Assembly: GCA_028876585.1 (NCBI GenBank)
Contig: JAGWRL010000260.1
Span: 1-15,225, forward strand
Direction: 5' to 3'
Length of the DNA: 15,225 nucleotides
Source of the DNA: Pseudomonadota bacterium
GTDB taxonomy: Bacteria; Pseudomonadota; Alphaproteobacteria; Rhizobiales; Beijerinckiaceae
Positions within the stretch are counted from its first letter, which is position 1. Each line of letters begins with the position of its first letter. The notes under the pieces are model-generated. The model was given only the letters and a program-made list of their open reading frames with translations, did no database searches and was not told the DNA's origin. Made by a program: the position numbers and the translations under genes. Positions 2 through 14,408 of the stretch are shown here, one piece after another.

Positions 2-589
2 CCCAATGGCGCGCTGATGGCGCCCACCCCGCTGACGCTGGCCGAGACCGCCAGCGTGTTCGGCGAGATGCTGACCTTCCGCGCGCTGCTCGCTTCCGCC
101 GCCGACCCCGCCGAGCGCAAGTCGATGCTGGCCTCGAAGGTCGAGGACATGCTCAACACGGTGGTGCGGCAGATCGCGTTCTATAAATTCGAGCGGCTGA
201 TCCACACCGAGCGACGCAAGGGCGAACTCACTTCCGAGCAGATTTCGGCCTTGTGGATGCGCGTGCAGGGCGAAAGTCTCGGGCCGGCGATCGACCTCGG
301 CCCCGGCTACGAAACCTACTGGACCTATATCGGCCATTTCATCCACGCGCCGTTCTATGTCTACGCCTACGCCTTCGGCGATTGTCTGGTCAATTCACTC
401 TATGGCGTCTACGAAACCGCGCACGAGGGTTTCGTCGAGCGCTATTTCGCGCTGCTGTCGGCCGGCGGCTCGAAGCCCTATGGCGAGTTGCTGAAGCCGT
501 TCGGCCTCGACGCGCGCGACCCGAAATTCTGGTCGATCGGGCTGTCGCTGATCGAGCGCATGATCGGCGAATTGGAGGCGATGGGCTGA
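2..589 (+). CDS. M3-family oligoendopeptidase (PepF-like), C-terminal part
   Basis: This is the 3' end of a zinc metallopeptidase of family M3, cytoplasmic enzymes that trim oligopeptides. The frame is open to the left edge, so the ATG at 17 is internal and the HExxH zinc helix lies upstream of the window. What remains starts with PNGALMAPTP and then LAETASVFGEML. In M3 enzymes the Glu of this LAE-x-AS segment is the third zinc ligand. Further on is GHFIHAPFYVYAYAFGD (about 326-382), the His/Tyr-rich segment that lines the active site in PepF-like proteins. The end (SIGLSLIERMIGELEAMG) is a normal family terminus, so the gene is cut only by the window. It faces the minus-strand operon convergently, so the two are probably not co-transcribed, although a peptidase beside a peptide-type transporter is suggestive. 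The family call is secure; the substrate is unknown. Confidence 0.9.
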   Translation, partial: PNGALMAPTPLTLAETASVFGEMLTFRALLASAADPAERKSMLASKVEDMLNTVVRQIAFYKFERLIHTERRKGELTSEQISALWMRVQGESLGPAIDLGPGYETYWTYIGHFIHAPFYVYAYAFGDCLVNSLYGVYETAHEGFVERYFALLSAGGSKPYGELLKPFGLDARDPKFWSIGLSLIERMIGELEAMG

Positions 590-764: not shown

Positions 765-1793
765 TCAGCGTCTGCGCCTGGCAATATAGTCTGCGCAGAG
801 CTTTTCCGCGACCTCGATCATGATCGGCGTCAGTTCGACAGCGGTTTCGGTTTGGCTGCGTGTGTGAACCCACCCGAGATAGGTCAGGCTGCGAGCGGCA
901 TAAAACATTTCCATCGCGTCGAGATCGCGAGGCGATAGCGGCCGTGCGGCTTGATAGCCCCGCAAGACGCTGGACCTGATCGTGTCGAACGCGGGCTCCT
1001 CGGCCAACCAATAGATCGCGGTTACGATTTCAAACATATGCCAGCCGAAACCAGCGTCGTCGAAATCGATCAACTCGATCGCGTCGCCGTTCAGCAGGAT
1101 GTTTTCCGGCACGAGGTCGGCATGAATCAGGCCGTAATTGCCCTGTGTTCGCCCATAACGGTCGAGATCCTCCCTCAGCGCGGCTTTGGCGTCCAGGAAA
1201 AGGCGCTTTTGCGAGGGTGATAGGGCGGCAAGCTCCCAAAATCGCCCCCACAACGGAGCCTCGCCCACAAAGCCGTCGCGATCCCAATGCGGTCGGGTTT
1301 GCGCATTCTGCTGCGGCCAAGCGACCGACAGATTGTGCAACTTGCCCATGCATTCGCCGATTCTGAAGAACAGCGCCGCGACGTCGCGCCCCTCAAGTTC
1401 GAGCGGAGAGCCGACCGCGCCCAACTGACGCCCGCTCAACCAACTCAGCATGTCGACCTTCCAGGCGCCGGGCGCGCCCTCGGCGCTCGCGTCGACGATC
1501 ATGGCGCCTGATCGCGTCGCGATCGGGCGCGGCGTCGCGATCCCGCCCTCAGCCAGCATCGCCATCCAATTCAGTTCCGATTTCAGGCTGTCCGCGGAGT
1601 GATATCCCTGTCGATGCACGCGCAAAGCGGCGCGTTCGCCGTCAGCAGTCTTGACCTCGAACACGGCGTTCTCGCGATATTTTATCAAACGCGGATCGCT
1701 GTCGGCCACGCCCCATTGCCGCAGCGCGTTGACGGCGAGAACGCGCAGGCGCGCGGCTTGTTCTTGCGCGTCGAGGTCAAAGAAGTCGGTCAT
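765..1793 (-). CDS. APH-fold small-molecule kinase (hydroxylysine/ethanolamine kinase-like)
   Basis: A 342-residue phosphotransferase of the aminoglycoside phosphotransferase/choline kinase fold, cytoplasmic, with no signal peptide. The Brenner motif HADLVPEN is at about residues 224-231 (His224, catalytic Asp226, Asn231), and the metal-binding IDFDD is at 242-246. The N-lobe nucleotide-binding region lies around residues 40-61 (ENAVFEV, then ALRVHR). Family members phosphorylate hydroxyls of small amines, including homoserine, choline, hydroxylysine and ethanolamine. It is the last gene of the operon, starting 24 nt after the class III PLP gene, with a GGGAGA ribosome site 6-7 nt before the ATG. 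Kinases of this fold next to, or fused with, phospho-lyase-type class III enzymes are known in bacteria, and human hydroxylysine kinase belongs here. I infer phosphorylation of an amino alcohol that the neighbour then cleaves. The exact substrate cannot be read from sequence, and an antibiotic-resistance role is unlikely in this context. Confidence 0.85.
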   Translation of the reverse strand: MTDFFDLDAQEQAARLRVLAVNALRQWGVADSDPRLIKYRENAVFEVKTADGERAALRVHRQGYHSADSLKSELNWMAMLAEGGIATPRPIATRSGAMIVDASAEGAPGAWKVDMLSWLSGRQLGAVGSPLELEGRDVAALFFRIGECMGKLHNLSVAWPQQNAQTRPHWDRDGFVGEAPLWGRFWELAALSPSQKRLFLDAKAALREDLDRYGRTQGNYGLIHADLVPENILLNGDAIELIDFDDAGFGWHMFEIVTAIYWLAEEPAFDTIRSSVLRGYQAARPLSPRDLDAMEMFYAARSLTYLGWVHTRSQTETAVELTPIMIEVAEKLCADYIARRRR

Positions 1794-1817
1794 CAGGCGT
1801 CTCCCGCATTTCTTGTG

Positions 1818-3134
1818 TCACATGCGTTCCAGCACATATTGCAGCGTGCTGAACAGATGGTCGGCGTTCTTCCGGGAAAACGGCATCGGCGGGCGGATTT
1901 TCAGCAGATTGTTCTTGCGTCCAATCAACCCCATGATCACGCCCTCCTCGCGCATCCGGTTCATGACCGCCCTGGCGCGCTTCTCGTCGGCTTGCCTGCT
2001 CTTGCGGCTCTTGACGAATTCGCCGCCGAAAAACAGGCCCGATCCCCTGATGTCGCCGATCTCCTCGAAACGACCGCTCAGCTTGTGAAAGCGCATTTTG
2101 GCGTAGGCGCCGACCTCGCGGGCGTTGTCGATCAGGCGTTCGCGCTCGATGACGTCGAGCGTCGCCAGCGCCGCCGCGCAGGCGACGGGGTTGGCGCCGA
2201 AAGTGTTGAAATAGAGGTTCTTGGAGCGGAACTCCCGCATGATGTCGTCGCGCGCGACGACGCCGCCGATCGGATAGCCATTGCCCATCGGCTTGCCCAT
2301 GGTGACGATGTCGGGCGTGAAGCCGGAATGCTGATGCCCCCACATCGCCGTGCCGGTTCGCCCAAACCCCGCCTGCACTTCGTCGGCGATCACCAGCCCG
2401 CCGGCCTTGTGAATCTTGCGCGCGATGCGGGCGAGAAAACCTGCCGGCAAATCCGGAAACCCTTCGTTGGCGAAGATCGGACAAATCAGGATCGCGGCGA
2501 CGCCGTGGCCCGCAGCTTTCAACGAGGCGATCGCCGCCTCGAGATGGCGAAGGATTCTCGCCGCCATCTCCTCGATGGTTCTTTCGCCGCGCTCGCGATG
2601 ATAGGAATCGGGCGCCGGAATCGAGCGAAGAAACAGGCTTTGCCCGTCCTCGCGCGGCAGCAACGTCGCCAACTCCATCACCAGCGCCGTATTGCCGTGG
2701 TAGGTGAAGTCGGTGACGATCAGGCCCCTGTTGCCGGTCGCCGATTGCGCCATCCGCAGCGCCACGTCGTTGGCCTCCGACCCGGTGCAGGTGTAGAGCA
2801 TCGTGTTCAGCGACTTGTGGAAGGTCGCGGTCAGACGCTCGGCGTAGTCGAGCACATTGTCGTGCAGATAACGCGAATGCGTGTTCAACAATCCCGTCTG
2901 TCGACGGATCGCCTCGACGACGTGGGGATGGCAATGGCCGACATGCGGGACATTGTTGTAACAATCGAGATATTTGCGCCCCTTGTGATCGTAGAGCCAG
3001 ACGCCCTTGGCGCGCACGAAATGCACGGGGTCGTCGTAGAAATGCGCATTGTTGGGGCCGAGCAACCGCTCGCGCCGCGCCATCATGCGCCTGGCGTGGC
3101 CCGACATTTTCGACTCCGCGGGATTGTTCGCCAA
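1818..3134 (-). CDS. Class III PLP enzyme, phospho-lyase type (ETNPPL/PHYKPL-like)
   Basis: A 438-residue fold-type I PLP enzyme of the class III aminotransferase family. Cofactor-site motifs are GSEAND (118-123), YHG (145-147), DEVQ (251-254) and the Schiff-base Lys281 in MGKPMGNGYP. The segments SRYLHDNVLDYAERL (88-102) and GKPMGNG resemble ethanolamine-phosphate and 5-phosphohydroxylysine phospho-lyases more than ordinary omega-transaminases. Those enzymes release ammonia and phosphate together, leaving an aldehyde. A kinase directly downstream and an aldehyde dehydrogenase directly upstream fit that chemistry. The listed start is a TTG with GAGG about 7-8 nt upstream. An ATG at 3107 (residue 10), preceded by GGAG, is equally good and gives the more usual family N-terminus. 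If the subgroup call is wrong, it would be a transaminase for a terminal amine. Family certain; lyase activity likely, not proven. Confidence 0.82.
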   Translation of the reverse strand: MANNPAESKMSGHARRMMARRERLLGPNNAHFYDDPVHFVRAKGVWLYDHKGRKYLDCYNNVPHVGHCHPHVVEAIRRQTGLLNTHSRYLHDNVLDYAERLTATFHKSLNTMLYTCTGSEANDVALRMAQSATGNRGLIVTDFTYHGNTALVMELATLLPREDGQSLFLRSIPAPDSYHRERGERTIEEMAARILRHLEAAIASLKAAGHGVAAILICPIFANEGFPDLPAGFLARIARKIHKAGGLVIADEVQAGFGRTGTAMWGHQHSGFTPDIVTMGKPMGNGYPIGGVVARDDIMREFRSKNLYFNTFGANPVACAAALATLDVIERERLIDNAREVGAYAKMRFHKLSGRFEEIGDIRGSGLFFGGEFVKSRKSRQADEKRARAVMNRMREEGVIMGLIGRKNNLLKIRPPMPFSRKNADHLFSTLQYVLERM

Positions 3135-3150
3135 CTTCGCGCCTCGCGGA

Positions 3151-4563
3151 TCAGGAGAAGATGACTTGGATGTCGGTGAATTCGTGCAGGCCCTCCTTGC
3201 CGAATTCGACGCCGAAGCCCGACGCCTTGCGGCCGCCGAACGGGGCGTTGGGTTGGATCACGCCATGTTTGTTGATCCACACCGACCCGCATTCAAGCCG
3301 CCGCGCCACCTTCTTGGCGTTGCCGATGTTGCGGCCCCAGACGGAGCCGCCGAGCCCATTCGGGCTGTCGTTGGCCATACGGATGGCCTCATCGACCTCG
3401 GCATAGCGGATGATTGGCAACACCGGTCCGAATTGTTCCTCGCGCACGAGGCGGTGCGAATTGTCGACGTCGCGCACCAGCGTCAGCGGATAGAAATGAC
3501 CGAGTTGGCGGGTCTTCGAGACCTTGCCGCCCAATATCACCTTGCCGCCGTTGGCCTTGGCGTCCTGGACCAATTCGACAATTTTGTTGAACTGACGCTC
3601 GTTCTGCACCGGACCGATGAGACTGTCCTCCAGCGCGCCGTCGCCCACCGCAATGGTTTTCGCGAATTCCTTCAGTTCACGGCAAACCTCGTCGTAGATC
3701 CGCTCATGCACATAGAGCCGCTTCAGCGCCGCGCAGGTCTGGCCGCCGTTGATGAAGGCGCCCCAGAACAGATTTTCCACGATCAGTTTCGGGTCCGCGT
3801 CGGGCAGCACGATGCCCGCGTCATTGCCGCCGAGTTCGAGCGTCAACCGCTTCATCGTTTGCGCCGCCGAGCGCATGATCTTCTGGCCGGTCTCGCACGA
3901 GCCGGTGAAAACGATCTTGCCGATTCCCTCATGCGCCGACATCTCCGCGCCGAGGAAATCTTCGCCGACGACGCAGTTGAGCACGCCCTTGGGCAGCACT
4001 TCGTTGAGCAGCTCCACCAACCGGATGGTTGATAGCGGTGTGAACGGCGAGGGTTTCACGACCACCGTGTTGCCGGCCTGCATCGCCGGGACGATATGCC
4101 AGATCGCGATCATCACCGGAAAATTCCACGGGGTGATCGAACCGACGACGCCGATCGGGCATCGGTAAGCCTTCAGCGTCCCGGCTTCGTTCTTTTGCAG
4201 GGTTTTCGGCTTGGTCTTCAGCGTCGCCGTATGGCGCGCCCAGGCGATTGCGCCGCCGATCTCCCAGCGCGAACCGAGCCCGTTGAGCGGCTTGCCCTGT
4301 TCGCGCGTCAGCAACCGCGCCAATTCGTCGGCGTTCTCCTCGATCTTGTCGGCGATCGCCACGGTCAATCTTCGCCGCTCCTTGTCGGACTTGCGGCTCC
4401 AGGACTCGAACGCCTTCGCCGCCGCCGCCACCGCCTCATCCAACTGCGCCTTGCCAGCTTTCGGCGCCATGCCGACGACGCCGTCGTTGGCGGGGTTGCG
4501 AACCGGAAAATGTTCGGGAGTGGGAACGTTGCGTCCGTCGATGATCAACGAATAGGTCTTCAT
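3151..4563 (-). CDS. NAD(P)-dependent aldehyde dehydrogenase
   Basis: A 470-residue member of the aldehyde dehydrogenase superfamily, full length and cytoplasmic. It oxidises an aldehyde to an acid with NAD(P). Visible motifs are TPWNFP with oxyanion Asn147, VVVKPSP (Lys170, cofactor binding), FTGS (219-222, Rossmann turn), ELGGND with general base Glu243, GQTC with catalytic Cys277, and EEQFGP (375-380). All key residues are present. It is most like the AldA/betaine-aldehyde/semialdehyde dehydrogenase branch. It lies 35 nt after the amidase gene and 16 nt before the PLP enzyme gene; AAGGA about 10 nt upstream supports the ATG. In context its substrate would be the aldehyde made by the neighbouring PLP enzyme: acetaldehyde, aminoadipate semialdehyde or another omega-semialdehyde. 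Family very secure; substrate inferred only. Confidence 0.93.
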   Translation of the reverse strand: MKTYSLIIDGRNVPTPEHFPVRNPANDGVVGMAPKAGKAQLDEAVAAAAKAFESWSRKSDKERRRLTVAIADKIEENADELARLLTREQGKPLNGLGSRWEIGGAIAWARHTATLKTKPKTLQKNEAGTLKAYRCPIGVVGSITPWNFPVMIAIWHIVPAMQAGNTVVVKPSPFTPLSTIRLVELLNEVLPKGVLNCVVGEDFLGAEMSAHEGIGKIVFTGSCETGQKIMRSAAQTMKRLTLELGGNDAGIVLPDADPKLIVENLFWGAFINGGQTCAALKRLYVHERIYDEVCRELKEFAKTIAVGDGALEDSLIGPVQNERQFNKIVELVQDAKANGGKVILGGKVSKTRQLGHFYPLTLVRDVDNSHRLVREEQFGPVLPIIRYAEVDEAIRMANDSPNGLGGSVWGRNIGNAKKVARRLECGSVWINKHGVIQPNAPFGGRKASGFGVEFGKEGLHEFTDIQVIFS

Positions 4564-4598
4564 GCGCCGGGAGTCCTTGCGTCAGCGGTCATCATGCG

Positions 4599-5996
4599 TC
4601 AGGTCCCAAAAATCGCCTCGATCCGGCGCGCGCACGCCAATACGGCGGCGTCGGCGTGCCGGCGCCCGACGATCTGCAACGCCACCGGCAGACCGCGCGC
4701 GGTCCGGCCGATGGGAACCACGGCGGCGGGTTGCTGGCTGAGGTTGAACGGATAGGTGAACCCGGTCCAATCCGTCCAGCGCATCATGCCTGAACCGAGG
4801 GGAAACTCGCGCTCGGCCTCGAAGGCCGCGATCGGCATCGCGGGGCTGATGAGGAAATCGAACGCGTCGAATTGCAGGTTGATGTCACGACGCAGCGCCG
4901 CGCGCGCCATCGTCGCCTCGACATAATCCATATGCGCCAGCGCCGCGCCCTCGGCCGATATGGCGGCCAGCCCCGGATCGAGCGCGGCCCGGGCCTCGGC
5001 GTCGAGCAAGCGAAGCGCCGCGGCGGCGCCGGTGAACCACAGGCGATGGAATATTTGCTGCGGGTTGGGAATGGCGAAATGGCGATCGACAAAGACAAAT
5101 CCCTCGCACGCCAATCGGCGCATCGCTGTTTCACAGAGGGCCGAGATCTCGCGGTCGACCTCGACAAAGCCGAGATTGGCGCTCCAGCAACATTTGGGTT
5201 GAGGCGCGGCGAGGGCGAGGCGTTCAACATAGTCGAGCGGCTCATAGGGGAGCGTGAACGGATCGCGCGAATCGGGTTCCGCAATCACGTTCAGCATCTC
5301 CGCCGCGTCCTCGACGCAACGCGTCATCGGGCCGACATGGGCGACGTCGCCGAAGGCGCTGGGGGGATAGGCGGGAACACGCCCGAACGAGGGCTTCAGC
5401 CCGAAGACGCCGCAAAAGGCCGAGGGAATTCGTATCGATCCGCCGCCGTCCGAGCCGATGTGCAGCACGCCCATGCCGAGCGCGGCGGCGACAGCTGCGC
5501 CGCCGCTCGACCCGCCAGCGGTCAGGGCGCGATCATGCGGATTGCGCGCGACGTCGCCGTTCGGGTTGTCGGTGATCCCCTTCCAACCAATCTCCGGCGT
5601 CGTCGTCTTGCCCAGCAGCACGGCGCCGGCCTCGCGCAGCCGCGCCGTGCAGGGCGCGTCCTCGCGCTCCGATCCCGCCAGCGCCGCGAGGCGCGAACCT
5701 TTGCGGGTCGGCCAGCCCTTGGTGTTGAACAGATCCTTGATCGAAGCCGGGACGCCGTCGATGCGGCCGAGCGGCGCGCCGCGCAGCCAGCGCTGCTCGG
5801 ATTCGCGGGCCTGCCGCAGCGCGGCGGCGTGATCGACAAAACAATAAGCGCCGAAATCGGCGTTGAGCGCGTCGATGCGATCGAGGCAGGCCCTGGCGAC
5901 CTCGACCGGCGAAAACGTCTTGGATTCGTAGCCCGCGCGCAATTGCCGGACGCCGAGGAAATGCAGATCGGCGCCCATCATGTCGGTCCTCTTCAT
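4599..5996 (-). CDS. Amidase-signature family hydrolase
   Basis: A 465-residue serine amidohydrolase of the amidase signature family, which hydrolyses C-N amide bonds (members include FAAH, 6-aminohexanoate cyclic dimer hydrolase and GatA-like enzymes). The Ser-cisSer-Lys triad is complete: Lys87 in ASIKDLF, the cis-Ser in AGGSSGG (Ser163) and the nucleophile Ser187 in SDGGGSIRIPS. No signal peptide, so cytoplasmic. No GatB/GatC genes are nearby, so a tRNA amidotransferase role is unlikely. The first ATG has only a weak ribosome site. Met6/Met7 (ATGATG at 5981 and 5978) have AAGAGGA 5-6 nt upstream and may be the real start. It lies 12 nt (27 nt with the alternative start) after the P1-hydrolase gene. 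In the operon it probably opens an amide in the imported compound or its breakdown product. Substrate unknown. Confidence 0.92.
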   Translation of the reverse strand: MKRTDMMGADLHFLGVRQLRAGYESKTFSPVEVARACLDRIDALNADFGAYCFVDHAAALRQARESEQRWLRGAPLGRIDGVPASIKDLFNTKGWPTRKGSRLAALAGSEREDAPCTARLREAGAVLLGKTTTPEIGWKGITDNPNGDVARNPHDRALTAGGSSGGAAVAAALGMGVLHIGSDGGGSIRIPSAFCGVFGLKPSFGRVPAYPPSAFGDVAHVGPMTRCVEDAAEMLNVIAEPDSRDPFTLPYEPLDYVERLALAAPQPKCCWSANLGFVEVDREISALCETAMRRLACEGFVFVDRHFAIPNPQQIFHRLWFTGAAAALRLLDAEARAALDPGLAAISAEGAALAHMDYVEATMARAALRRDINLQFDAFDFLISPAMPIAAFEAEREFPLGSGMMRWTDWTGFTYPFNLSQQPAAVVPIGRTARGLPVALQIVGRRHADAAVLACARRIEAIFGT

Positions 5997-6008
5997 ATCT
6001 GGCTCTTG

Positions 6009-7304
6009 TCAGATGGCAGTCGAACGGGCGCGGCCCGTCTGCTGCCAGGCCCCGAGATTGGTGATCATTCGATCCGGCGCGCCGTTCGCACCGGCCAGGA
6101 ACGCGCCGTCGCGAAACGCGGGGTAACCGCTCTCGCTCAGCGAAAAGCGACCGTCGGGGCCGAGGCGCGCCCGCGCGCTTTGCCCGGTTGGCACGCCGTG
6201 AAAGGATCGCGCGCCGGTGTTGACCAGAGTGAGCCCGTCGCCTTCGCTCGCCACCCGCGCCGAGAACCCCTCGCCAAAGACGAACTCGCCATTCAGTTGA
6301 TCGAGTCCGGCGGCCGGAATCGGGCTGACCGGCGCATATCTCCGCGGCCGGGTCACGTTCTCCAGCGCCTCGCGCATCACATCGGCAGCGATGGTTCCGA
6401 GCGCCGTGAGTTCGATCGAGGGATCGTCGACCTCGTCGGTGCTGGCGGCGAACAGAACGTCGCCGTCGAGCGGACAGGCGAACGGTTGGATCGAGCGCGC
6501 CATCGCCGCATGAACCTGTACGCCCAAACGATTGAGCGCCGAATAAGGCAAGCGCAGATTTGTGACGATGAGACTGATCGTCGTGTTGGTTGGATTGATC
6601 GCGCCCGGCGACGTGGTGGGATGCAGCCGCATCGGCGCGAGCGCTTGGTCGAGCGTGGCGATCCCCTCAGGCAGCAGTCCCAGCGGATCGAGCAGGCGGC
6701 CTTTGCGGTCGCACACCAATCCGACCGGATTGGCGACTGCGAAGGCCGCGATCTTGACCGCGCCGATTTGTCGAAACGCGCCCCCTTGTCCCGACGGCAG
6801 CGCGTGACCGAGGATCATGCCTTGAACGGCCATTCGCCCCGCGCCATGGGCGCCGAGCGGGAAGACGCCGGCACGGGCGGCCCGGTACGCGGCCGCGCCG
6901 AGCGCCACGTCGGGGCAGACCTCGTTGAGGCGCCGATCGCCGTAGTCATAGATGATCGCGCCCGCGACATTGGCGAGCCGCGTCAATTGTCCGTCATAAT
7001 AGCCGTCCGCTTTCATCGCCGCGGCGATGCCGGAGATCGCCTGCAAGCCGTACCACGAGCCGCCGGAAACGCCGATCGCGTCGAGCGTCGGTAGGTCATA
7101 GCCGAGCTTGAGGAAATCGGTGTTGTAACTGCCCGGCAGGCCGCCGCGCACATCGACGGCGGCCTTCGCTTTGTTGGGGAACACGAAGGCGGTGACGCCG
7201 GTCGGCCCTTCGGCGTATTCGGCGCAGCCTATGCGCAGCGCCGGCCAATCGAATTCAATCGTTTCGCCGTGAACCGCGACGTCGGGTGCGAGGTTGATCG
7301 CCAT
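6009..7304 (-). CDS. P1-family (DmpA/NylC-like) N-terminal-nucleophile hydrolase with long C-terminal tail
   Basis: A 431-residue member of the P1 family: L-aminopeptidase/D-esterase DmpA, beta-peptidyl aminopeptidases and the nylon-oligomer hydrolase NylC. These are made as inactive precursors that self-cleave, and the new N-terminal Ser/Thr attacks amide bonds. Family blocks are RGGLPGSYNTDFLKLG (53-68), SGGSWYGLQA (80-89), ANVAGAIIYDYGD (111-123), NPTNTTISLIVTN (237-249) and DGDVLFAASTDEV (280-292). Cleavage is predicted between Asn240 and Thr241, making Thr241 the nucleophile as in NylC rather than Ser as in DmpA. The core appears to end near residue 320; the remaining ~110 residues exceed the usual family length (about 355-375) and I recognise no domain there. 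No signal peptide. It is co-transcribed between the ATPase and amidase genes, 12-13 nt from each. The ribosome site is weak. Likely job: releasing an amino-terminal or amide-linked unit. Confidence 0.88.
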   Translation of the reverse strand: MAINLAPDVAVHGETIEFDWPALRIGCAEYAEGPTGVTAFVFPNKAKAAVDVRGGLPGSYNTDFLKLGYDLPTLDAIGVSGGSWYGLQAISGIAAAMKADGYYDGQLTRLANVAGAIIYDYGDRRLNEVCPDVALGAAAYRAARAGVFPLGAHGAGRMAVQGMILGHALPSGQGGAFRQIGAVKIAAFAVANPVGLVCDRKGRLLDPLGLLPEGIATLDQALAPMRLHPTTSPGAINPTNTTISLIVTNLRLPYSALNRLGVQVHAAMARSIQPFACPLDGDVLFAASTDEVDDPSIELTALGTIAADVMREALENVTRPRRYAPVSPIPAAGLDQLNGEFVFGEGFSARVASEGDGLTLVNTGARSFHGVPTGQSARARLGPDGRFSLSESGYPAFRDGAFLAGANGAPDRMITNLGAWQQTGRARSTAI

Positions 7305-7317
7305 TCGCGTCTCTTTC

Positions 7318-8085
7318 TCAGATCAGATCGCTAGCTTTCAGAAGCGCGTCGACGTAGTCGATCCCCGTTTCCGCATAATACTTGCGCGTCGGCGCCCAAT
7401 CCACCAGTTCGCCCCGGCGCAGCACCGCGATCGAATGCGCGAGCGAGCGCACCGCTCCCAGATCATGCGAGATGAACAGCGCGGCGAATTTCATTTCGTC
7501 CTGCAACGAACGGATCAGTTCAAGAATCTGCGCCTGAACAGACATATCGAGGGCGCTGACCGCTTCATCGAATACGATGAACTTCGGGCTGGTGACGAGC
7601 GCGCGGGCGATCGACACGCGTTGTCGTTGACCTCCCGAAAGCTGTCGCGGGTAGCGGCGCGCATGGTCGGGCGTCAACCCGACGCGCGCGAGCATCGCCT
7701 CAATCCGCGCCTCGGCTTGCGCGCCCGTGACGCCGGCCACCCTCAAGGGCTCGGTGACCGATTTGGCGACCGTCATGCGCGGGTTGAGCGACCATTCCGG
7801 ATATTGCAGCACCGCCGACAGATGACCAGGGCTGCGCTTGCCAAGCCCAAACACCTCGCGCTCGCCCATTCGGACCGCGCCCGATGTCGGCCGCATCAAC
7901 CCAAGGCAGAGTTTGCCGATGGTGCTCTTGCCTGAACCGGATTCGCCCACAAGCCCCAGCGTCTCGCCGTGGTTGACGCCGAGGTTGACACGCTTCACCG
8001 CGTCCAACTGGCGCCGCGCCCAGAAGGGTCCGGAAGGGAAGCGCACCGTGACATCGTTCAGCGCGACGAGCGGTTCACGCGTCAT
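7318..8085 (-). CDS. Dpp/Opp-type ABC transporter ATP-binding protein (second ATPase)
   Basis: A 255-residue ATPase of the peptide/nickel/opine (PepT) import family, equivalent in position to DppF/NikE. It powers uptake through the two permeases encoded upstream, on the cytoplasmic face. Motifs: Walker A GESGSGKST (47-55), Q-loop Gln94 in VLQYPEWSLNP, signature LSGGQRQRVSIARAL (149-163), Walker B FIVFDE followed by AVSALD (169-180), and switch His207 in ISHD. The DEAVSALD form in place of DEPTSALD occurs in NikE-like members. Its ATG overlaps the TGA of the previous ATPase gene (ATGA), the usual coupling that keeps the two subunits balanced. The short C-terminal region lacks a clear oligopeptide-transporter C-terminal domain. 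Family certain; cargo unknown. Confidence 0.92.
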   Translation of the reverse strand: MTREPLVALNDVTVRFPSGPFWARRQLDAVKRVNLGVNHGETLGLVGESGSGKSTIGKLCLGLMRPTSGAVRMGEREVFGLGKRSPGHLSAVLQYPEWSLNPRMTVAKSVTEPLRVAGVTGAQAEARIEAMLARVGLTPDHARRYPRQLSGGQRQRVSIARALVTSPKFIVFDEAVSALDMSVQAQILELIRSLQDEMKFAALFISHDLGAVRSLAHSIAVLRRGELVDWAPTRKYYAETGIDYVDALLKASDLI

Positions 8086-8912
8086 GGCGCGACCTCTCGC
8101 GCGACATCGGCATGGGGCGCGCGCTTGCCCGGAATCGCCCGCAGCAGTTTGATGGTATAGGGATGCTCCGGCGCCGAGAAAATGCGCTCCGTCGGCCCCC
8201 TTTCAACGATCTCTCCATCTTTCATCACCGCGACGTTTTCGGCGAATGCGCGCACCGATTGCAGATCGTGACTGACGATCAATAAAGCGGAGCCCGTCTC
8301 GTTGCAAACACGTGTCAGCAAGGTCATGATCTGCACCCTTACCAGCGCGTCCAGCGCCGACGTCGGCTCATCGGCGACGATCAGTCGCGGCGACTTGGCG
8401 ATGCACATGGCGATGGCGACCCTCTGCGCCATGCCGCCGGACAGTTCATGCGGAAGGGCGGCGAGGACCTGTTCGAGATGGCTCAATTCGACGCTTTCCA
8501 GCAGCGCGCGAATCCGCGGTCTCGGCAAATTGCCGCTTTCGGGATCGAAGAACTGATCACGAATCCGGCGCGTCGGATCCAAGGTGGTGATCGGGTTTTG
8601 AAAGATGAACGAGATCAGATGCTGACGTAGCCAGCGCTGGCGCTCCGGGCTCGCGCCGAACACATCCTCGCCCGCGATCTCGATGCGACCGCCCGCGACT
8701 TTTCCCGGTGGCCGCAGAAAGCCGGCCAACGCCAAGCCGAGCGTGCTTTTGCCTGAACCGGATTCGCCGATGACGCCCCAATGCGCGCCGGGCTCGACGG
8801 CCAGCGTCACGTTCTTCAGCGCTTCGACAACCATATCGCCAACCGCGAAGCGCACGCTGAAACTATCGACGCGCGCGATCGGTTTTCCCGTGTGAATTGG
8901 CTGCACGGACAT
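8082..8912 (-). CDS. Dpp/Opp-type ABC transporter ATP-binding protein (first ATPase)
   Basis: A 276-residue ATPase equivalent in position to DppD/OppD. Motifs: Walker A GESGSGKST (49-57), Q-loop Gln105 in IFQNPITTLDP, signature LSGGMAQRVAIA (157-168), Walker B LIVADEPTSALD (177-188) and switch His215 in VSHD. The end (APEHPYTIKLLRAIPGK) matches the start of the oligopeptide-transporter C-terminal region, but the protein then stops; the usual DppD length is about 320-330 and the Cys-rich tail is absent. It starts 3 nt after the TAG of the upstream permease gene, with GGAA as a modest ribosome site. With its overlapping partner it forms the nucleotide-binding pair of the importer. Family certain; the short tail is typical of NikD-like members. 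Confidence 0.92.
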   Translation of the reverse strand: MSVQPIHTGKPIARVDSFSVRFAVGDMVVEALKNVTLAVEPGAHWGVIGESGSGKSTLGLALAGFLRPPGKVAGGRIEIAGEDVFGASPERQRWLRQHLISFIFQNPITTLDPTRRIRDQFFDPESGNLPRPRIRALLESVELSHLEQVLAALPHELSGGMAQRVAIAMCIAKSPRLIVADEPTSALDALVRVQIMTLLTRVCNETGSALLIVSHDLQSVRAFAENVAVMKDGEIVERGPTERIFSAPEHPYTIKLLRAIPGKRAPHADVAREVAP

Positions 8913-8915
8913 CGT

Positions 8916-9755
8916 CTATTCCATGCCAAGGGGATCAATCGTGCGGCGCAGACCATCGCCGAGGAGATTGACCGACAAAATGGCGAGCGACAAGGTGATC
9001 CCGGCGGGAAACACCATCCACGGCGCGACCTCGATATAGGGCACGCCATCGCGCAGCATCGTTCCGAGCGAAGCCGTCGGCGCCTGAACGCCGATGCCCA
9101 GGAACGATAGGCTGCTTTCAACCAGCATGCCCACCGAAATCGAATAGACGAGCTGCACGAATATCGTCTCGGAGACGTTGGGCAGGATATGGGTGAACAC
9201 GCGCCGGAAGAAGGACACACCGGAAATTTCCGCCACGACGACGAAATCCCGCTTCATGACCGCGAGCGTCGCGGCCCGCACCACCCGCGACATCGCCGGA
9301 AAGGTGATCGCGGCGATGACGACCATCGCGCTGACGATGCCCGGCCTGATGACCGCCGTCACGAGAATGCCGAGCAGGATCGGCGGGAACGAGAACAGAA
9401 TATCGGAGAAGCGGTTTGAAATTTCGTTGCTCAGGGGGCGCCAGTAGGTGGCGCAGGTCGCGGTCAAGGCGCCGAGCAGACCCGAGACCAGCACCGCGAA
9501 GGCGGAGAGAAGAAATGTGTTCTGCAACCCTTGCACGACGCGCGCCAGGATCGGCCGCCCGAGTTGGTCGCCGCCGAAGGGCGCGGCGAGCGTCGGCGGT
9601 TGCAGCCGTTCGAGCGCGCCCACTTCGTCCGGTCGGCCGAAAGGCAGCAGCGCGAACGCGACAATGCCGAGCAGGAACATGCAAAGAATGAGCAAGGCGG
9701 CCAACAGGAGATAGTCGCGCGCGACGGCGCGCAGGAGGACGCGCGGCGAGATCAA
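8916..9755 (-). CDS. Dpp/Opp-type ABC transporter permease (DppC-like)
   Basis: A 279-residue inner-membrane permease of the BPD-transport family. There is one N-terminal membrane segment (about residues 15-37), a periplasmic loop with GGDQLGRPILARVVQG (61-76), then a C-terminal block of about five segments with the ATPase-coupling EAA-type loop around residues 170-190 (DFVVVAEISGVSFFRR, then HILPN). The loop motif is normally GTDxxGRDxxSR; here the second Asp is Pro68. The start is TTG, overlapping the TGA of the previous permease gene (TTGA). A strong GGAGG 6 nt upstream supports it, and no in-frame ATG sits nearby. This is translational coupling with the other permease. It ends in LLGDGLRRTIDPLG, the standard family terminus. 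Family certain; cargo unknown. Confidence 0.92.
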   Translation of the reverse strand: MISPRVLLRAVARDYLLLAALLILCMFLLGIVAFALLPFGRPDEVGALERLQPPTLAAPFGGDQLGRPILARVVQGLQNTFLLSAFAVLVSGLLGALTATCATYWRPLSNEISNRFSDILFSFPPILLGILVTAVIRPGIVSAMVVIAAITFPAMSRVVRAATLAVMKRDFVVVAEISGVSFFRRVFTHILPNVSETIFVQLVYSISVGMLVESSLSFLGIGVQAPTASLGTMLRDGVPYIEVAPWMVFPAGITLSLAILSVNLLGDGLRRTIDPLGME

Positions 9756-10705
9756 CGGTCGCCTCCATCGCGAAATCGCGGGTCGAGTTTTGCGTAAATG
9801 ATGTCGGTGACCATGTTGATGACGACGAAGAAGCTGGCCGACAGCATCACGCCCGCCTGCACCACCGGATAGTCGCGCCCCATGATCCCCTGCAACAGAT
9901 AACGGCCGAAGCCGGGAACGGAGAACAGGTTTTCAATCAGGACGGCGCCGCCGAGCAGATAGCCCAGATAGATGCCCAGAACCGTGAGCACCGGTATCGA
10001 GACGTTGCGCAAAATATGGCGGCGGATGATCTGCATCCGCGTCAGCCCGCGCAAGGTCGCCGCCGTGACATGATCCTGTTGCTGCACCGAGATCACCGCA
10101 TGGCGAGCGGTGGCGGCGACGAGGCCGACGCCGAAAAACGATAAGGCGGCGGCGGGAATCAGCACCGATTGCAGATGCAGGCTGAGGCTTTCTTGCGCGC
10201 TCACCCATTTGCCGACGGATACGCCAGGCGCAAAGCGCGAAAACATGAACAGCATCGCGCTGCCCAAGACGAAATCCGGCGCCGAGCCGCACAGGGAGGG
10301 AACGACCCGGCCCAAGCCGCCCCACAGCCGGCGGTCGCCGCCAAAACCCGCCGCGACGCCGATGCCGCCGCCAACGAGGGTCGCGATGACCATCGCGGCG
10401 AGGGCGATCTCGGCGGTCACGAATATGCGTTGCCGAAACTCGTCCCAGACGGGTTTGCTGGTGACGAGCGAATCGCCGAAGTCGCCCCGCAGCAGAGCGG
10501 CCACCCAGCGCAAATACTGGATGACCAGAGGTTGATCGAGCCCGAGTCTGGCCGCCAGCGCCGCGCGAAACTCGGGAGTTCCGCGCGGCACCAACACTTC
10601 CTCGAAACTGCCCGGGACCGAGCGGATCGCCAGGAAGATGACGATCGAGACGCCAACCAGCGTGAGCATGGTGCTGATCAAGCGACCGGCGACGAACTTC
10701 AGCAT
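9752..10705 (-). CDS. Dpp/Opp-type ABC transporter permease (DppB-like)
   Basis: A 317-residue inner-membrane permease. I start it at the ATG at 10705 (MLKFVAGRLISTML), giving the normal DppB N-terminus; the open frame runs further upstream but there overlaps the binding-protein gene. A GTG at 10732 overlapping that gene's TGA (GTGA) is an alternative. No strong ribosome site precedes the ATG. Landmarks: first membrane segment at about 9-29, LLRGDFGDSL (71-80), coupling loop HVTAATLRGLTRMQIIRRHILRN (212-234), VLIENLFSVPGFGRYL (255-270), GRDYPVVQAGVM (276-287) and the C-terminus DIIYAKLDPRFR. It forms the translocation channel with the DppC-like subunit, whose TTG start overlaps its stop. Family certain. 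Confidence 0.9.
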   Translation of the reverse strand: MLKFVAGRLISTMLTLVGVSIVIFLAIRSVPGSFEEVLVPRGTPEFRAALAARLGLDQPLVIQYLRWVAALLRGDFGDSLVTSKPVWDEFRQRIFVTAEIALAAMVIATLVGGGIGVAAGFGGDRRLWGGLGRVVPSLCGSAPDFVLGSAMLFMFSRFAPGVSVGKWVSAQESLSLHLQSVLIPAAALSFFGVGLVAATARHAVISVQQQDHVTAATLRGLTRMQIIRRHILRNVSIPVLTVLGIYLGYLLGGAVLIENLFSVPGFGRYLLQGIMGRDYPVVQAGVMLSASFFVVINMVTDIIYAKLDPRFRDGGDR

Positions 10706-10728
10706 CAGGGCGACCCCGGACCCACCAT

Positions 10729-12315
10729 TCACCGTGCTTTGTAGGCCCCGACGCCATAGAGGTTGTCCGCGTAGCCGTCCTTGTGACGGATGCCGGAAGC
10801 GTCGACCAGATCGGCGCGAAAGGCCATCGTTTCGACGCGCGTGATCAGCGGAATCTGGTTCGCCTGCGCGTCGAGCATTGAGGCGACATCCTGCAACGCC
10901 TTCGGCCGCGCCGGATCGTCGGCCGCCATCGCCCGCAGATTGGTGACCGCCGTCACCACGTCGGCTTCCTCGATCTGATAGCCGCCCGTGAACCCGGCCG
11001 CCTTGGGCACGAACCAGAGCGGGATCATCGCCGGATCGGAATAGCCGGCGTACCAACCAAGCGCTGCCTGGAAATTGCCCGGCTGATCGATCCAGACCCG
11101 CTTGACCATCGTGCCTTCGTCGACTGTGACGATGTTGACCGTTATGCCCGCCTCGGCGAAGCTCTCTTTGAGGACCTGGCTGATGGCCTGCCAGGCCGGC
11201 TCGGCGCCGGTGATCAACTCGAAGCTCAGGCTCTTCTGGCCGGCCTCGGCGAGCAAGGATTTGGCGCGATTGACGTCGCGGTTGAAATAGCCGAGCTTCG
11301 AAGTGTCGCAGGCGGCGAACAGCGGCGCCATCGACGACGAGGGCGCGCCATTGCCGCCCATGGCGATCTTGGCGATGCGCGGACGGTCGACAGCGAGCGC
11401 GACGGCTTGACGAACCTTTGCGTGGCCGAACGGCGAGTTCGGCGCGACGGCGTTCAGCATCAACCAGAACAGGTTGGACTGCTGGTTCTGAACGATCTCG
11501 ACGTTCTTGACCGCGCCCAGCAGCAGCTTCGCGTCGGGGCTGGCGTCGAACTGCGCGACCTGGACGGAGCCGTCGCGAAGGGCGGCGATCAAGGCGTTGT
11601 CATTGGGGATGATGCGCACCACGAGACGATCGAAGGTCGGTTGGCCCTGGCGCCAGTAATTGGGATTGCGGGCGAGCACCCATTTGTCGCCCTGCGTGTG
11701 CGATTCGACCATGTAAGGGCCGGAGCCGAGGAACGCTTTGGAGGGGTCGAAACCGCCGGCGGCGAGTTCTTTCATCGGCAGGATCGAGGCCATGGTTGAC
11801 GACAGCGCGGTCAACAGCGGCGCGTAAGGAGTCTTGAGCGCGATGCGGACTTTGTTGTCCCCAGCCGCTTCAATCGCCGTGATCGGCCCCATCTGGCCGC
11901 CGAAGAACGATCCAGTCTTCGGGTTGATGAGGCGGGTAAGGCTCCCGACGACGTCGTCCACCGTCAGTTCGCGACCGTTGGAGAATTTCACGCCCTTGTG
12001 GATGGTGAACACATATTCGGCGGGCGAGGGCTGCGTCCAGGATTCGGCGACGCCGGGGACGGGCTTGAGGTCGGCGTCGAGATCAACCAACCCTTCATAG
12101 ATGGTGTGCAGCAGCTCCCATGACGAGGCCAGGATCGACGTCGCGGGATCGTACATGGTCGCCTCGATCTTCTTGCCCCAGACAAGCTCGCTGGCGCCGG
12201 CGGCGAAGGCCCGCCCGGTTACCGCTTGTGGCAGCGCCAGCGCGCCGGCGCCAATCGCCAGGTTCCGGATGAAGGCGCGACGCGTGACGAACGACATCAG
12301 ATTTTCCTCCGACAT
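10729..12315 (-). CDS. Family-5 extracellular solute-binding protein, Tat-exported (DppA-like)
   Basis: A 528-residue periplasmic binding protein of the peptide/nickel/opine family (SBP_bac_5), delivering cargo to the downstream permeases. The N-terminus has a twin-arginine signal, TRRAFIRN at residues 11-18, then a hydrophobic stretch and AFA before a likely cut near residue 38. Family features include YEGLVDLDADLKPVPGVAESW after the signal, the FTIHKGVKFSNG block and VRQAVALAVDR in the middle. Length is normal. It is the first gene after the regulator (21-nt gap) and has two ATG codons (12315 and 12297), each with its own GGAGG; the second places the RR motif closer to the N-terminus. Use of Tat suggests folding or cofactor/ligand loading before export, or just lineage habit. 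Cargo could be peptides, amides, opines or metal complexes; the neighbours favour an amide-containing compound. Confidence 0.92.
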   Translation of the reverse strand: MSEENLMSFVTRRAFIRNLAIGAGALALPQAVTGRAFAAGASELVWGKKIEATMYDPATSILASSWELLHTIYEGLVDLDADLKPVPGVAESWTQPSPAEYVFTIHKGVKFSNGRELTVDDVVGSLTRLINPKTGSFFGGQMGPITAIEAAGDNKVRIALKTPYAPLLTALSSTMASILPMKELAAGGFDPSKAFLGSGPYMVESHTQGDKWVLARNPNYWRQGQPTFDRLVVRIIPNDNALIAALRDGSVQVAQFDASPDAKLLLGAVKNVEIVQNQQSNLFWLMLNAVAPNSPFGHAKVRQAVALAVDRPRIAKIAMGGNGAPSSSMAPLFAACDTSKLGYFNRDVNRAKSLLAEAGQKSLSFELITGAEPAWQAISQVLKESFAEAGITVNIVTVDEGTMVKRVWIDQPGNFQAALGWYAGYSDPAMIPLWFVPKAAGFTGGYQIEEADVVTAVTNLRAMAADDPARPKALQDVASMLDAQANQIPLITRVETMAFRADLVDASGIRHKDGYADNLYGVGAYKAR

Positions 12316-12328
12316 TACTTTTCCTCCC
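12295..12328 (-). promoter_or_regulatory. Duplicated ribosome-binding-site/start module of the binding-protein gene
   Basis: On the minus strand two similar units follow each other: GGAGGAAAAGTAATGTC and GGAGGAAAATCTGATGTC. The Shine-Dalgarno cores lie at 12323-12327 and 12306-12310, 7 and 8 nt before ATG codons at 12315 and 12297 in the same frame. Both starts look strong, giving 528 or 522 residues. The near-identity suggests a small tandem duplication. It marks a high-translation point in the operon, as expected for a binding protein needed in excess over its permeases (inference). Confidence 0.6.
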
Positions 12329-12336
12329 GTGAAAAC

Positions 12337-13134
12337 TTATCTTCTGTTTGATCTGACGCTGGTCAGGAACCCGCTCAAGTCAACTTCCGCTTCGAGATCG
12401 ACCATGTATCTGCGGGCCGATTCCATGTGTTCCGTCATGATTTTCGCGACCATTGGCCCGTCCCCGGCGCGAAACGCCTCGATCAGCTTTTCGTGGTGCG
12501 AGCAATTGTCATGGCCAAATTCCGCGTGCGGCGCCATGTGCATGTCGCGGAAGACGACGAGATCGGCGAGCAAACGATTGAGAAAGCGGCACATGAACGC
12601 CAGCAGCGGATTGGGCGAGGCTTCGGAGATCACATTGTGGAACTCCAGTTCGGCGAGCCTTTGCTGACGGCGCTCCTTGTGATCGGCGGCGGGGCCGCGG
12701 CTGGCCAGATTGAGAGCTTCCATCCGCTTCAGTTGCTCGGCGCTCAACCGGCCTGTCGCGGCCTGCGCCATTTCCGGCTCCAGCCGGCATCTGACTTCAT
12801 AGAGGTCGCGAGCGCTCGGCGTGTTGAAGAAAAAATAGGCGCTGAGCAACTGCATCGCCCGCGCCTCGTCAATTTCCCGGATCGTCGCGCCGCCGCGGGG
12901 ACCGGTCGTCAATTTGACGAGCCCTTGCACTTCCAGCGACTTCAACGCCTCGCGCACCGTGCCTTTGCTCAAGCCAAACTCAGCCAGCAGTTCCTTCTCG
13001 TTGGGCAGCCGCTCGCCGGGTCGATAGTGGCCGGAGACGATGCGTGATTTGATGACCTCGGCCATGAAATCGGAGCGTTTTTGGAAATCGGGCACCGTGC
13101 TTTCGGACAATGCGGATATAGGGTTCTGGGCCAT
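12337..13134 (-). CDS. GntR-family transcriptional regulator, FadR/FCD subfamily
   Basis: A 265-residue DNA-binding regulator. The winged helix-turn-helix spans about residues 25-88 (ERLPNEKELLAEFGLSKGTVREALKSLEVQGLV, then the GPRGG wing). An all-helical FCD effector domain covers about 105-240. Its likely metal-binding histidines are His166 (ELEFHNVIS), His213/214 (CSHHEKLIEAF) and His236 (TEHMESA). FCD regulators usually bind small organic acids and repress neighbouring catabolic genes until the ligand appears. It is the first gene of the train, 21 nt before the binding-protein gene, so it probably controls its own operon. The codon just before the ATG is a stop (TAA), so the start cannot move upstream. 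There is no Shine-Dalgarno, and the -10 lies within a few bases, suggesting a leaderless or near-leaderless mRNA. Family certain; ligand unknown. Confidence 0.93.
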   Translation of the reverse strand: MAQNPISALSESTVPDFQKRSDFMAEVIKSRIVSGHYRPGERLPNEKELLAEFGLSKGTVREALKSLEVQGLVKLTTGPRGGATIREIDEARAMQLLSAYFFFNTPSARDLYEVRCRLEPEMAQAATGRLSAEQLKRMEALNLASRGPAADHKERRQQRLAELEFHNVISEASPNPLLAFMCRFLNRLLADLVVFRDMHMAPHAEFGHDNCSHHEKLIEAFRAGDGPMVAKIMTEHMESARRYMVDLEAEVDLSGFLTSVRSNRR

Positions 13135-13170
13135 TTATTATGATAAATACAATAAACCGGATATTGTCAA
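13134..13170 (-). promoter_or_regulatory. Promoter and candidate operator of the catabolic operon
   Basis: On the minus strand a perfect -35 TTGACA (13165-13170) is followed by an AT-rich stretch. The best -10 is TATCAT (13140-13145, spacer 19); TTTATC (13142-13147, spacer 17) is a weaker alternative. An imperfect 23-bp palindrome, 13134-13156, has outer arms TTTATT/AATAAA and pairs at 8 of 11 positions. It covers both -10 options and the first base of the start codon. That is a classic place for an autorepressor, and GntR-type proteins bind short palindromes. Promoter and operator calls are inferred from sequence shape and position. Confidence 0.6.
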
Positions 13171-13449
13171 GCGCAGGCGACGCGTCCTCCAGCTTTTGGC
13201 GTGGACCTGTCGTGGCGGTTGGTCGACACAGCGCGCGCGTTCGCAAATGGCCTGACGCCGCGGGGGATGGCGGCTGCCACAGGCGCGCGGCCCCGCCTGC
13301 AACGGATTTCAGAGGCGGCCAGGCGATCTGGGCGGGGGCGATCCGAACGCGGTCCCGCACGGCGCTTGCGTGCGGAGTCGGACGGATTGGTTTGTTTCGT
13401 CGGCGGCGCGGCGGCGGGGGCGCAAATCCGCCCGCGCCGCCGGTTCCGC
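13171..13449. other. Gene-free intergenic stretch
   Basis: With the promoter, 13135-13449 is a 315-base stretch without a gene, separating the regulator's promoter from the stop codon of the cyclase-family gene. It is GC-rich apart from the promoter. It contains one strong inverted repeat (13401-13442, listed separately). Open frames here are continuations of antisense frames of the cyclase gene, with Arg/Ala-rich compositions typical of GC-rich noise. I see no tRNA, riboswitch or repeat family. Confidence 0.6.
13401..13442 (-). terminator. Hairpin downstream of the cyclase-family gene
   Basis: GGCGGCGCGG (13402-13411) pairs perfectly with CCGCGCCGCC (13432-13441), extended by one C-G pair, around a loop of about 20 nt that can pair further. 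It begins about 8 nt after the TGA stop of the minus-strand cyclase gene. The bases after the stem on that strand are ACGAAACAAACC, not a U-run, so efficiency as an intrinsic terminator is uncertain. It could keep that transcript from running into the operon promoter. Confidence 0.4.
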
Positions 13450-14289: not shown

Positions 14290-14361
14290 GGCGTTTCGCT
14301 CCCTCTCGCGCGCGCTCCCTTCCGGGCCGCGCTGTTCTCCGCCATCGCGGCGGGATGCGGG

Positions 14362-14391
14362 AAGCTATGAGCTAACATGTTTGCCTGTCAA
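14362..14391 (-). promoter_or_regulatory. Possible promoter of the cyclase-family gene
   Basis: Minus strand: a perfect -35 TTGACA at 14386-14391, in the gap after the GcvT-domain gene. The -10 is poor: TAGCTT (14362-14367) at 18 bp or CATAGC (14364-14369) at 16 bp. A start near 14355 would give a leader of about 65 nt. Supported mainly by the exact -35 and its position between two same-strand genes. Confidence 0.35.
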
Positions 14392-14408
14392 TTCAGCGCG
14401 CGGCGCCG

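Follow-up and report, generated by a model that had tools for sequence, protein, structure and literature searches.

The window analysed here, a stretch of 15,225 nt from an alphaproteobacterium of the Beijerinckiaceae (contig JAGWRL010000260.1), carries a train of 11 minus-strand genes running from 13134 down to 765, which an earlier reading of the same DNA (here called the original prediction) had described as one operon for import, amide cleavage, phosphorylation, phospho-elimination and oxidation. Open reading frame (ORF) calling confirmed this layout, with no gap above the predicted limit of 35 nt: from the regulator gene gntR downwards, the ten junctions measure 21, 23, −4, 3, −4, 13, 12, 35, 16 and 24 nt. 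The train is flanked by 315 nt upstream of gntR and by 175 nt between the kinase gene and the convergent end of an M3-peptidase gene, and from the spacing we presume that the 11 genes are co-transcribed. Directly upstream of gntR lies the AT-richest zone of the window (13135..13170, minus strand; 78% AT, equalled by 4 of 15,190 segments of 36 bases), a presumed promoter/operator with an exact TTGACA inside and 6-nt inverted repeats nearby. The AT-richness that had been proposed to mark a single promoter was thus found, but a consensus promoter was not: a σ70 scan of the window called none, against 2.3 expected from shuffling. Since any −10 element would abut the annotated ATG of gntR, either the promoter or the first codon of this gene is uncertain. 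The GntR/FCD-family regulator itself (12337..13134) has 265 amino acids as annotated, with a true start that may lie downstream. Motif patterns, applied to every operon gene except the two permeases, matched in 8 of the 11 (both ATPases, kinase, lyase, dehydrogenase, amidase, P1 hydrolase and the twin-arginine signal of the binding protein); the strict GntR pattern found no match in the regulator, although its Pfam GntR (60.7 bits) and FCD (79.0 bits) domains score. For the gene families as first named, Pfam, NCBIfam and PDB sequence searches agree.

The genes behind the regulator, all on the minus strand, supply by Pfam the complete parts of a Dpp/Opp-type ABC importer: a periplasmic binding protein of SBP family 5 with a twin-arginine (Tat) signal (10729..12315; SBP_bac_5 255 bits, RRAFIR at residue 12), a DppB-like and a DppC-like permease (9752..10705 and 8916..9755; BPD_transp_1 110 and 80 bits), and two ATPases with Walker A and LSGG motifs, the first with an oligo_HPY tail (8082..8912; ABC_tran 98 bits, oligo_HPY 31 bits), the second at 7318..8085 (ABC_tran 106 bits). 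None of the 11 NCBIfam matches of the binding protein lies above its cut-off, and peptide transport is only a prediction. Downstream follows a P1/S58 N-terminal nucleophile (Ntn) hydrolase (6009..7304; Peptidase_S58 70.7 bits), which matches the solved structures of Nyl12 and NylC with 193 and 177 bits. It shows no signal peptide by eye and presumably cleaves itself at N240/T241. The residues N240-T241-T242 and N192 are invariant across 17 sequences; N240/T241 aligns to NylC N266/T267, and N192 to NylC N219. With the domain, an Asn-Thr pair for cleavage and the conserved equivalent of NylC N219 all present, the protein classifies as a member of the P1/S58 family, not as a demonstrated NylC. 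A C-terminal extension of about 115 amino acids (residues about 315-431) is found in close relatives and lies past the part of the protein that the NylC chains match. The amidase-signature hydrolase that comes next (4599..5996) scores 302 bits with Pfam Amidase and 593 bits with NCBIfam NF004815 (cut-off 506), and carries the Lys and two Ser motifs.

The last three genes encode an aldehyde dehydrogenase, a pyridoxal phosphate (PLP) enzyme and a kinase. For the dehydrogenase (3151..4563), the best NCBIfam model is PRK13473, whose 422 bits fall below the cut-off of 615, and PDB 8yen is matched with 396 bits. The PLP enzyme (1818..3134; motifs NNVPHVGH and GKPMGNG) contains an aminotransferase class III domain (PF00202, 266.5 bits), and among solved structures it comes closest to a bacterial phospholyase (5g4i, 398 bits) and to human ETNPPL (6tor, 342 bits); the next solved family, dialkylglycine decarboxylase, reaches only 185 bits. 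The kinase (765..1793) has an APH domain (Pfam, 91 bits) with the HxDxxxxN motif (HADLVPEN) and IDFDD, and its best solved match is PDB 6ef6 (131 bits), which we take to be the M. smegmatis aminopropanol kinase; it is predicted to act on a β-amino alcohol.

Three further genes lie at the flanks. At 14409-15224 (minus strand, open at the right end), upstream of the operon, is the C-terminal part of a GcvT-domain protein that resembles sarcosine oxidase alpha or trimethylamine N-oxide (TMAO) demethylase. Between it and the operon, at 13450-14289 (minus strand), a putative cyclase, arylformamidase-like (PF04199, 143 bits), has an apparent twin-arginine start by eye. At the other end, an M3-family oligoendopeptidase gene on the plus strand runs towards the operon, with its C-terminal end inside the window (2-589).

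To place the PLP enzyme and the kinase in a wider context, we compared 54 lyase loci, comprising 10 from genomes with P1 loci (L095-L104), 40 of 65 listed places, mostly the higher-scoring ones, fetched without regard to P1 (L105-L144), and the loci L001, L012, L013 and L025. Before these counts were made, 14 kinase ORFs that had clustered with the lyases and five ordinary aminotransferases were set aside, and likewise in the tree. The motif NNV...GH, defined from the fetched loci and not from the literature, is present in 53 of the 54 lyase relatives and absent from all five ordinary class III aminotransferases found in these loci. An 81-row tree splits 76 lyases from five aminotransferases with full support. 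Taken together with the PDB scores, this supports the assignment of the window's enzyme, by sequence class, to the phospho-lyases over the transaminases, as had been predicted. An APH kinase lies within 1.5 kb of the lyase, or is fused to it, in 53 of the 54 loci; in the sole exception, L135, the lyase is only 189 bases from the start of the contig. Kinase and lyase are therefore a real and widespread pair, with near universal coupling in the fetched loci. At E 1e-80 the lyase occurs in at least 39 of 385 alphaproteobacterial and at least 12 of 274 gammaproteobacterial genomes sampled, both lower bounds, with the four to six best candidates per genome scored. Few lyases close to that of the window turned up in wider hunts. 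A search at E 1e-130 gave a single genome among 76 of the G295 order and, with the best four to six candidates per genome scored, a single one among 300 of the G001 order; with the same number of candidates scored, none of 394 genomes of the G1042 family (1e-185) and none of 249 of the G1044 family (1e-160) had one, absences that are weak. The nearest lyases, P0122-P0135 at 70-85% identity, are known solely from other contigs. If the pair is indeed a kinase and a phospho-lyase, a large gene group gains a testable function; relatives of the lyase in L146 and L150 are annotated "aspartate aminotransferase family protein" beside "phosphotransferase".

Some neighbourhoods of the pair stand apart. 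The rhizobial plasmids L146 and L150 carry an annotated set of Tm-1-like protein, HAD hydrolase, aminotransferase, lyase and kinase, and the plasmid L147 carries lyase, kinase and aminotransferase only, as judged by similarity. The L146 set adjoins genes for 4-hydroxyphenylacetate degradation (hpa); an octopamine-type substrate, considered on account of these genes, found no support in the literature search. In L116, from the gammaproteobacterial sample, a gene resembling the methylamine-dehydrogenase heavy chain (13128-14501 and nearby) lies beside a run of lyase, kinase and dehydrogenase. Amidase matches of 27-32% near lyases in 5 of 50 loci (L103, L106, L109, L115 and L136) were not counted, the family being common, and neither were partial or weaker matches of 32-35% in L014, L019 and L160, which are without the lyase motif.

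We then turned to the front half of the operon, scanning genome contigs for P1 and keeping the best 80 of 517 loci. In seven of these 80 (L001, L025-L029 and L031), the binding protein, two permeases, two ATPases and P1 are collinear in the order of the window, and L002 has the importer and P1 parts in scattered form. Two further importer-P1 loci were seen in Variovorax (L149) and in the Streptomyces sample (L164). The importer and P1 thus constitute a second module, and five of the seven collinear loci have no lyase in the locus. On the Sinorhizobium fredii plasmid pSfreNXT3b, typed as conjugative, an amidase (43%) adjoins a P1 (44%), both related to those of the window, and the pair is flanked by transposase and recombinase genes (L148, 10362-13362). 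In Leucobacter komagatae, the importer-P1 module is followed by an amidohydrolase and two AAT-family proteins (L026, 10962-14819).

Both modules meet in a minority of loci. P1 and the kinase-lyase pair occur together in four of the 80 P1 loci (L001, L012, L013 and L025), among which L001, a Pseudomonadota metagenome-assembled genome, has P1, amidase and a complete importer, its kinase and lyase genes lying on the other strand. Kinase, lyase and P1 also stand together in L012 and L151 of the Steroidobacteraceae sample, in L013, L158 and L159 of the Caulobacteraceae sample, and, each time with an importer, in the Streptomyces loci L025 and L164. L013 comes from Asticcacaulis endophyticus and L025 from Streptomyces sp. 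SID12501. In the families of G006 and G007, 15 P1 places were found, two partial ones were left out, and 5 of the 13 examined were joint (L012, L151, L013, L158 and L159; L012 and L013 enter both counts). A fusion of kinase and lyase was present in 4 of 61 genomes of the Streptomyces sample (L025, L162, L163 and L164); L163 combines it with an importer and an amidase, without P1, and L162 has no importer or hydrolase match. The neighbourhood check that had been proposed, whether hydrolases are found with kinase and lyase elsewhere, hence came out in favour of the original prediction at nine loci: L001, L012, L013, L025, L151, L158, L159 and L164 through P1, and L163 through the amidase only. 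By chance, 0.075 lyases would be expected in 16 P1 loci of 15 genomes against four seen (P about 1e-6), for loci that were picked after seeing the matches and include all four joint ones. A fairer figure, calculated by hand for all 80 loci at the same rate, is about 0.38 expected against four seen (P about 6e-4).

On the tree, the joint state requires five changes, forced by well-supported branches; one of them is the non-joint L162 within the Streptomyces group, while the Steroidobacteraceae and Caulobacteraceae rows sit on an unresolved fork and may share one change. Eight protein-only rows (P0122 to P0156, except P0137, which matches L145) were scored non-joint with their context unseen. 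The transporters differ as well, being of the ABC type in some joint loci and of the POT type in L012, L013, L151, L158 and L159. These changes, together with the very different kinases and the differing transporters, suggest that the modules were joined more than once, with gains and losses indistinguishable. As the joining recurs across lineages, results on one system would inform many bacteria.

Based on gene family and context, we infer a route of six steps, and the operon probably serves to break down a primary β-amino alcohol that is conjugated as an amide or peptide. The Tat-exported SBP-5 protein and the DppBCDF-type importer would take up the conjugate, whose amide bonds would be cut in the cytoplasm by the P1 Ntn hydrolase and the amidase. 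The APH-fold kinase would then phosphorylate the hydroxyl of the released HO-CHR-CH2-NH2, the PLP ammoniophospholyase would eliminate phosphate and ammonia to give R-CH2-CHO, and the aldehyde dehydrogenase would oxidise this aldehyde; with R = H, the products would be acetaldehyde and then acetate. The GntR/FCD regulator might sense the substrate or the product. In this form, the self-contained route of the original prediction finds support in its main line, namely in the class of the lyase and its coupling to a kinase, and its substrate is a proposal. The view of the whole set as one route is supported for the kinase-lyase pair and the hydrolases, which co-occur elsewhere, and less so for the dehydrogenase, which is less consistently part of it: close relatives of the dehydrogenase (49-68%) adjoin lyase or kinase in L145, L116 and L165 and lie about 3 kb away in L095, and similarity searches detected neither P1 nor amidase in any of these four loci.

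The choice of substrate draws on the neighbourhoods of the lyase, whose chemistry with the kinase requires a primary amine adjacent to the carbon that bears the hydroxyl. In Sinorhizobium chiapasense (L145), the closest lyase seen in context (70%) is adjacent to a dehydrogenase (68%), and beside these two lie a choline/ethanolamine-kinase-like gene (Pfam 42.9 bits, over the cut-off), a DMGDH-like DAO/GCV_T demethylase and a formyl-tetrahydrofolate deformylase; ETF and FolD genes were also recognised there by eye. In L163, the kinase-lyase fusion is followed downstream by SHMT and a DAO flavoprotein. The GcvT-type C terminus at the edge of the window shares 35-37% identity with the DMGDH-like neighbours of the L108 and L118 lyases, and 29% with the one in L145. 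Because the nearest lyase and dehydrogenase in context adjoin choline/ethanolamine-kinase-like and one-carbon (C1) genes, ethanolamine (R = H) is the leading substrate within the pathway class, at somewhat less than an even chance, and the contexts of L145, L163 and the window flank point to ethanolamine-type, perhaps N-methylated, substrates. It is tempting to speculate, if doubtfully, that a repeatedly assembled and so far undescribed system is at work, in which a dedicated kinase and ammoniophospholyase act on β-amino alcohols or hydroxy-amino acids that P1 Ntn hydrolases, relatives of today's nylon hydrolases, naturally release; a folate-linked N-demethylase may extend it for N-methylated members in the window, S. 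chiapasense and L163. If so, the P1 hydrolases, which are screened today as nylon-degrading enzymes, would gain a candidate natural job.

Several observations weigh against this reading. P1 was detected in none of the 40 loci chosen by the lyase alone (L105-L144, several of them on contigs of 3.5-6.6 kb), so the full combination is rare, and the window's kinase bears only a remote likeness to those of L012, L013 and L025. Lys189, given as the presumed catalytic residue of NylC in the accessible part of its description (PMC6021441), aligns to Met163 of the window's P1 in a hand-numbered alignment; activity on NylC-like substrates is therefore not assured. The label "ethanolamine kinase" is weak for the L145 gene, since in NCBIfam it matches a guanitoxin-synthesis kinase and nothing else, with a score well short of the cut-off (88.9 vs 357). 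In L013, the dehydrogenase is a succinate-semialdehyde dehydrogenase (673 bits, over the cut-off of 646), so the substrate there points to the γ-aminobutyrate (GABA) or hydroxy-GABA type, not to ethanolamine. The DMGDH-like neighbours of lyases (L108, L118, L145 and the window flank) are suggestive and could be due to chance. Finally, the Dpp sets beside the kinase-lyase pair alone in L140 and L141 were dropped as support, the genomes there having 43-44 SBP_bac_5 genes each; in a control, each of 16 genomes held 4 to 44, and with genes so numerous an importer beside the pair alone means little.

Other substrates would fit parts of the operon. With a 5-hydroxylysine peptide of the collagen type, a HYKK/PHYKPL-like kinase and lyase would lead to 2-aminoadipate semialdehyde and on to aminoadipate. 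The peptide-type importer and the two amide hydrolases suit peptides, and the animal hydroxylysine route reportedly consists of just such a kinase and phospho-lyase, as described by Veiga-da-Cunha in 2012. Yet the solved structures that best match P1 are nylon-oligomer hydrolases, the nearest lyase-dehydrogenase pair in context sits with choline-kinase-like and C1 genes, and the scan of the window's proteins picked out none of the aminoadipate type; literature searches turned up no bacterial hydroxylysine operon, and we regard this substrate as unlikely. The amide of a hydroxylated ω-amino acid such as isoserine or GABOB, which the kinase and lyase would turn into malonate or succinate semialdehyde, is likewise improbable for the window. 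It would agree with the best-matching solved relatives of P1, which cleave amides of ω-amino acids or diamines, with L013, where P1, kinase, lyase and an aminotransferase accompany the succinate-semialdehyde dehydrogenase over its cut-off, and with the class III aminotransferase matches (27-35% identity, without the lyase motif) in many lyase-free P1 loci. Against it, the window's own dehydrogenase reaches 347 bits where the succinate-semialdehyde cut-off is 646, and the closest pair, in S. chiapasense, sits among genes of another kind. The lyase family probably has one chemistry and several substrates, and relatives may handle hydroxy-ω-amino acids.

The remaining alternatives concern the operon as a whole. 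P1 and the amidase resemble NylC and NylA by family and are followed by a class III PLP enzyme and a dehydrogenase, as if 6-aminohexanoate-type oligomers were cut, transaminated and oxidised along a route like that of NylA, NylC, NylD and NylE, with the kinase incidental. This is very unlikely, given that the PLP enzyme has the lyase motif and clusters with lyases, that 53 of 54 loci pair enzymes of this kind with a kinase, and that NylC Lys189 is not conserved in the window's P1. The importer with its hydrolases and the kinase, lyase and dehydrogenase might also share an operon without sharing a substrate. Each module does occur alone (five of seven collinear importer-P1 loci without a lyase, and 40 of 40 kinase-lyase loci without detected P1), but the tight spacing, in which no internal gap exceeds 35 nt, and the co-occurrence of the modules in four other lineages make this improbable too.

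The operon shares parts with several known systems. The nylon-6 oligomer pathway (NylA/NylC/NylD/NylE) also unites P1 and amidase-signature hydrolases, a class III PLP enzyme and an aldehyde dehydrogenase in one set; the window differs in its PLP enzyme, which by sequence class belongs with the lyases, not with ω-transaminases like NylD, and has a kinase beside it, in the Met at the Lys189 position of NylC, and in the presence of an importer. A Dpp-type importer with a dedicated hydrolase, in the form of an SBP-5 protein, two permeases, two ATPases and P1 in collinear order, recurs in Actinobacteria and Variovorax, but five of the seven such loci of the P1 scan lack the nearby lyase. ETNPPL, PHYKPL and the bacterial 5g4i share with the window's enzyme the class III PLP fold (the 398 and 342 bits to two solved members) and a kinase partner, which PHYKPL has as well; phospho-lyases of this type are not known to us in combination with amide importers and hydrolases. 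A further class III PLP lyase, according to the part of its description available, acts on a hydroxylated primary amine (PMC8154272); the window's enzyme scores 217 bits against the cut-off of 525 for it, and no phosphonate genes are among the scanned window proteins. The back half of the operon (kinase, lyase and dehydrogenase) is thus known chemistry, whereas its joining to an amide importer and hydrolases is undescribed in the literature searched, a scope outside which most subscription papers fall.

The closest known system is RMM1/aut, a 1-amino-2-propanol microcompartment locus of Mycobacterium and Rhodococcus, which, in the accessible parts of the two papers, comprises GntR, a permease, a class III PLP enzyme, an APH kinase and an aldehyde dehydrogenase, with hydrolases in RMM1 (PMC4207490, PMC6620236). 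The window also joins a class III PLP enzyme, an APH kinase, an aldehyde dehydrogenase and GntR. It differs in having no shell genes among its 11 operon and three flanking proteins (Pfam and NCBIfam; NCBIfam only for the dehydrogenase and the M3 peptidase), an ABC peptide-type importer in place of the GabP-type permease, and P1 and amidase-signature hydrolases with no short-chain dehydrogenase. The claim that no characterised operon joins all these parts held in the literature searched, but RMM1/aut, as far as those papers could be seen, joins many of them, so that the combination is less isolated than had been thought. Both papers, in the same parts, treat the PLP enzyme of RMM1/aut as an aminotransferase (PMC4207490, PMC6620236); the coupling of lyase and kinase seen here suggests that it could be a phospho-lyase too. 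In its families, the core of the window's operon resembles an RMM/aut locus without the shell genes.

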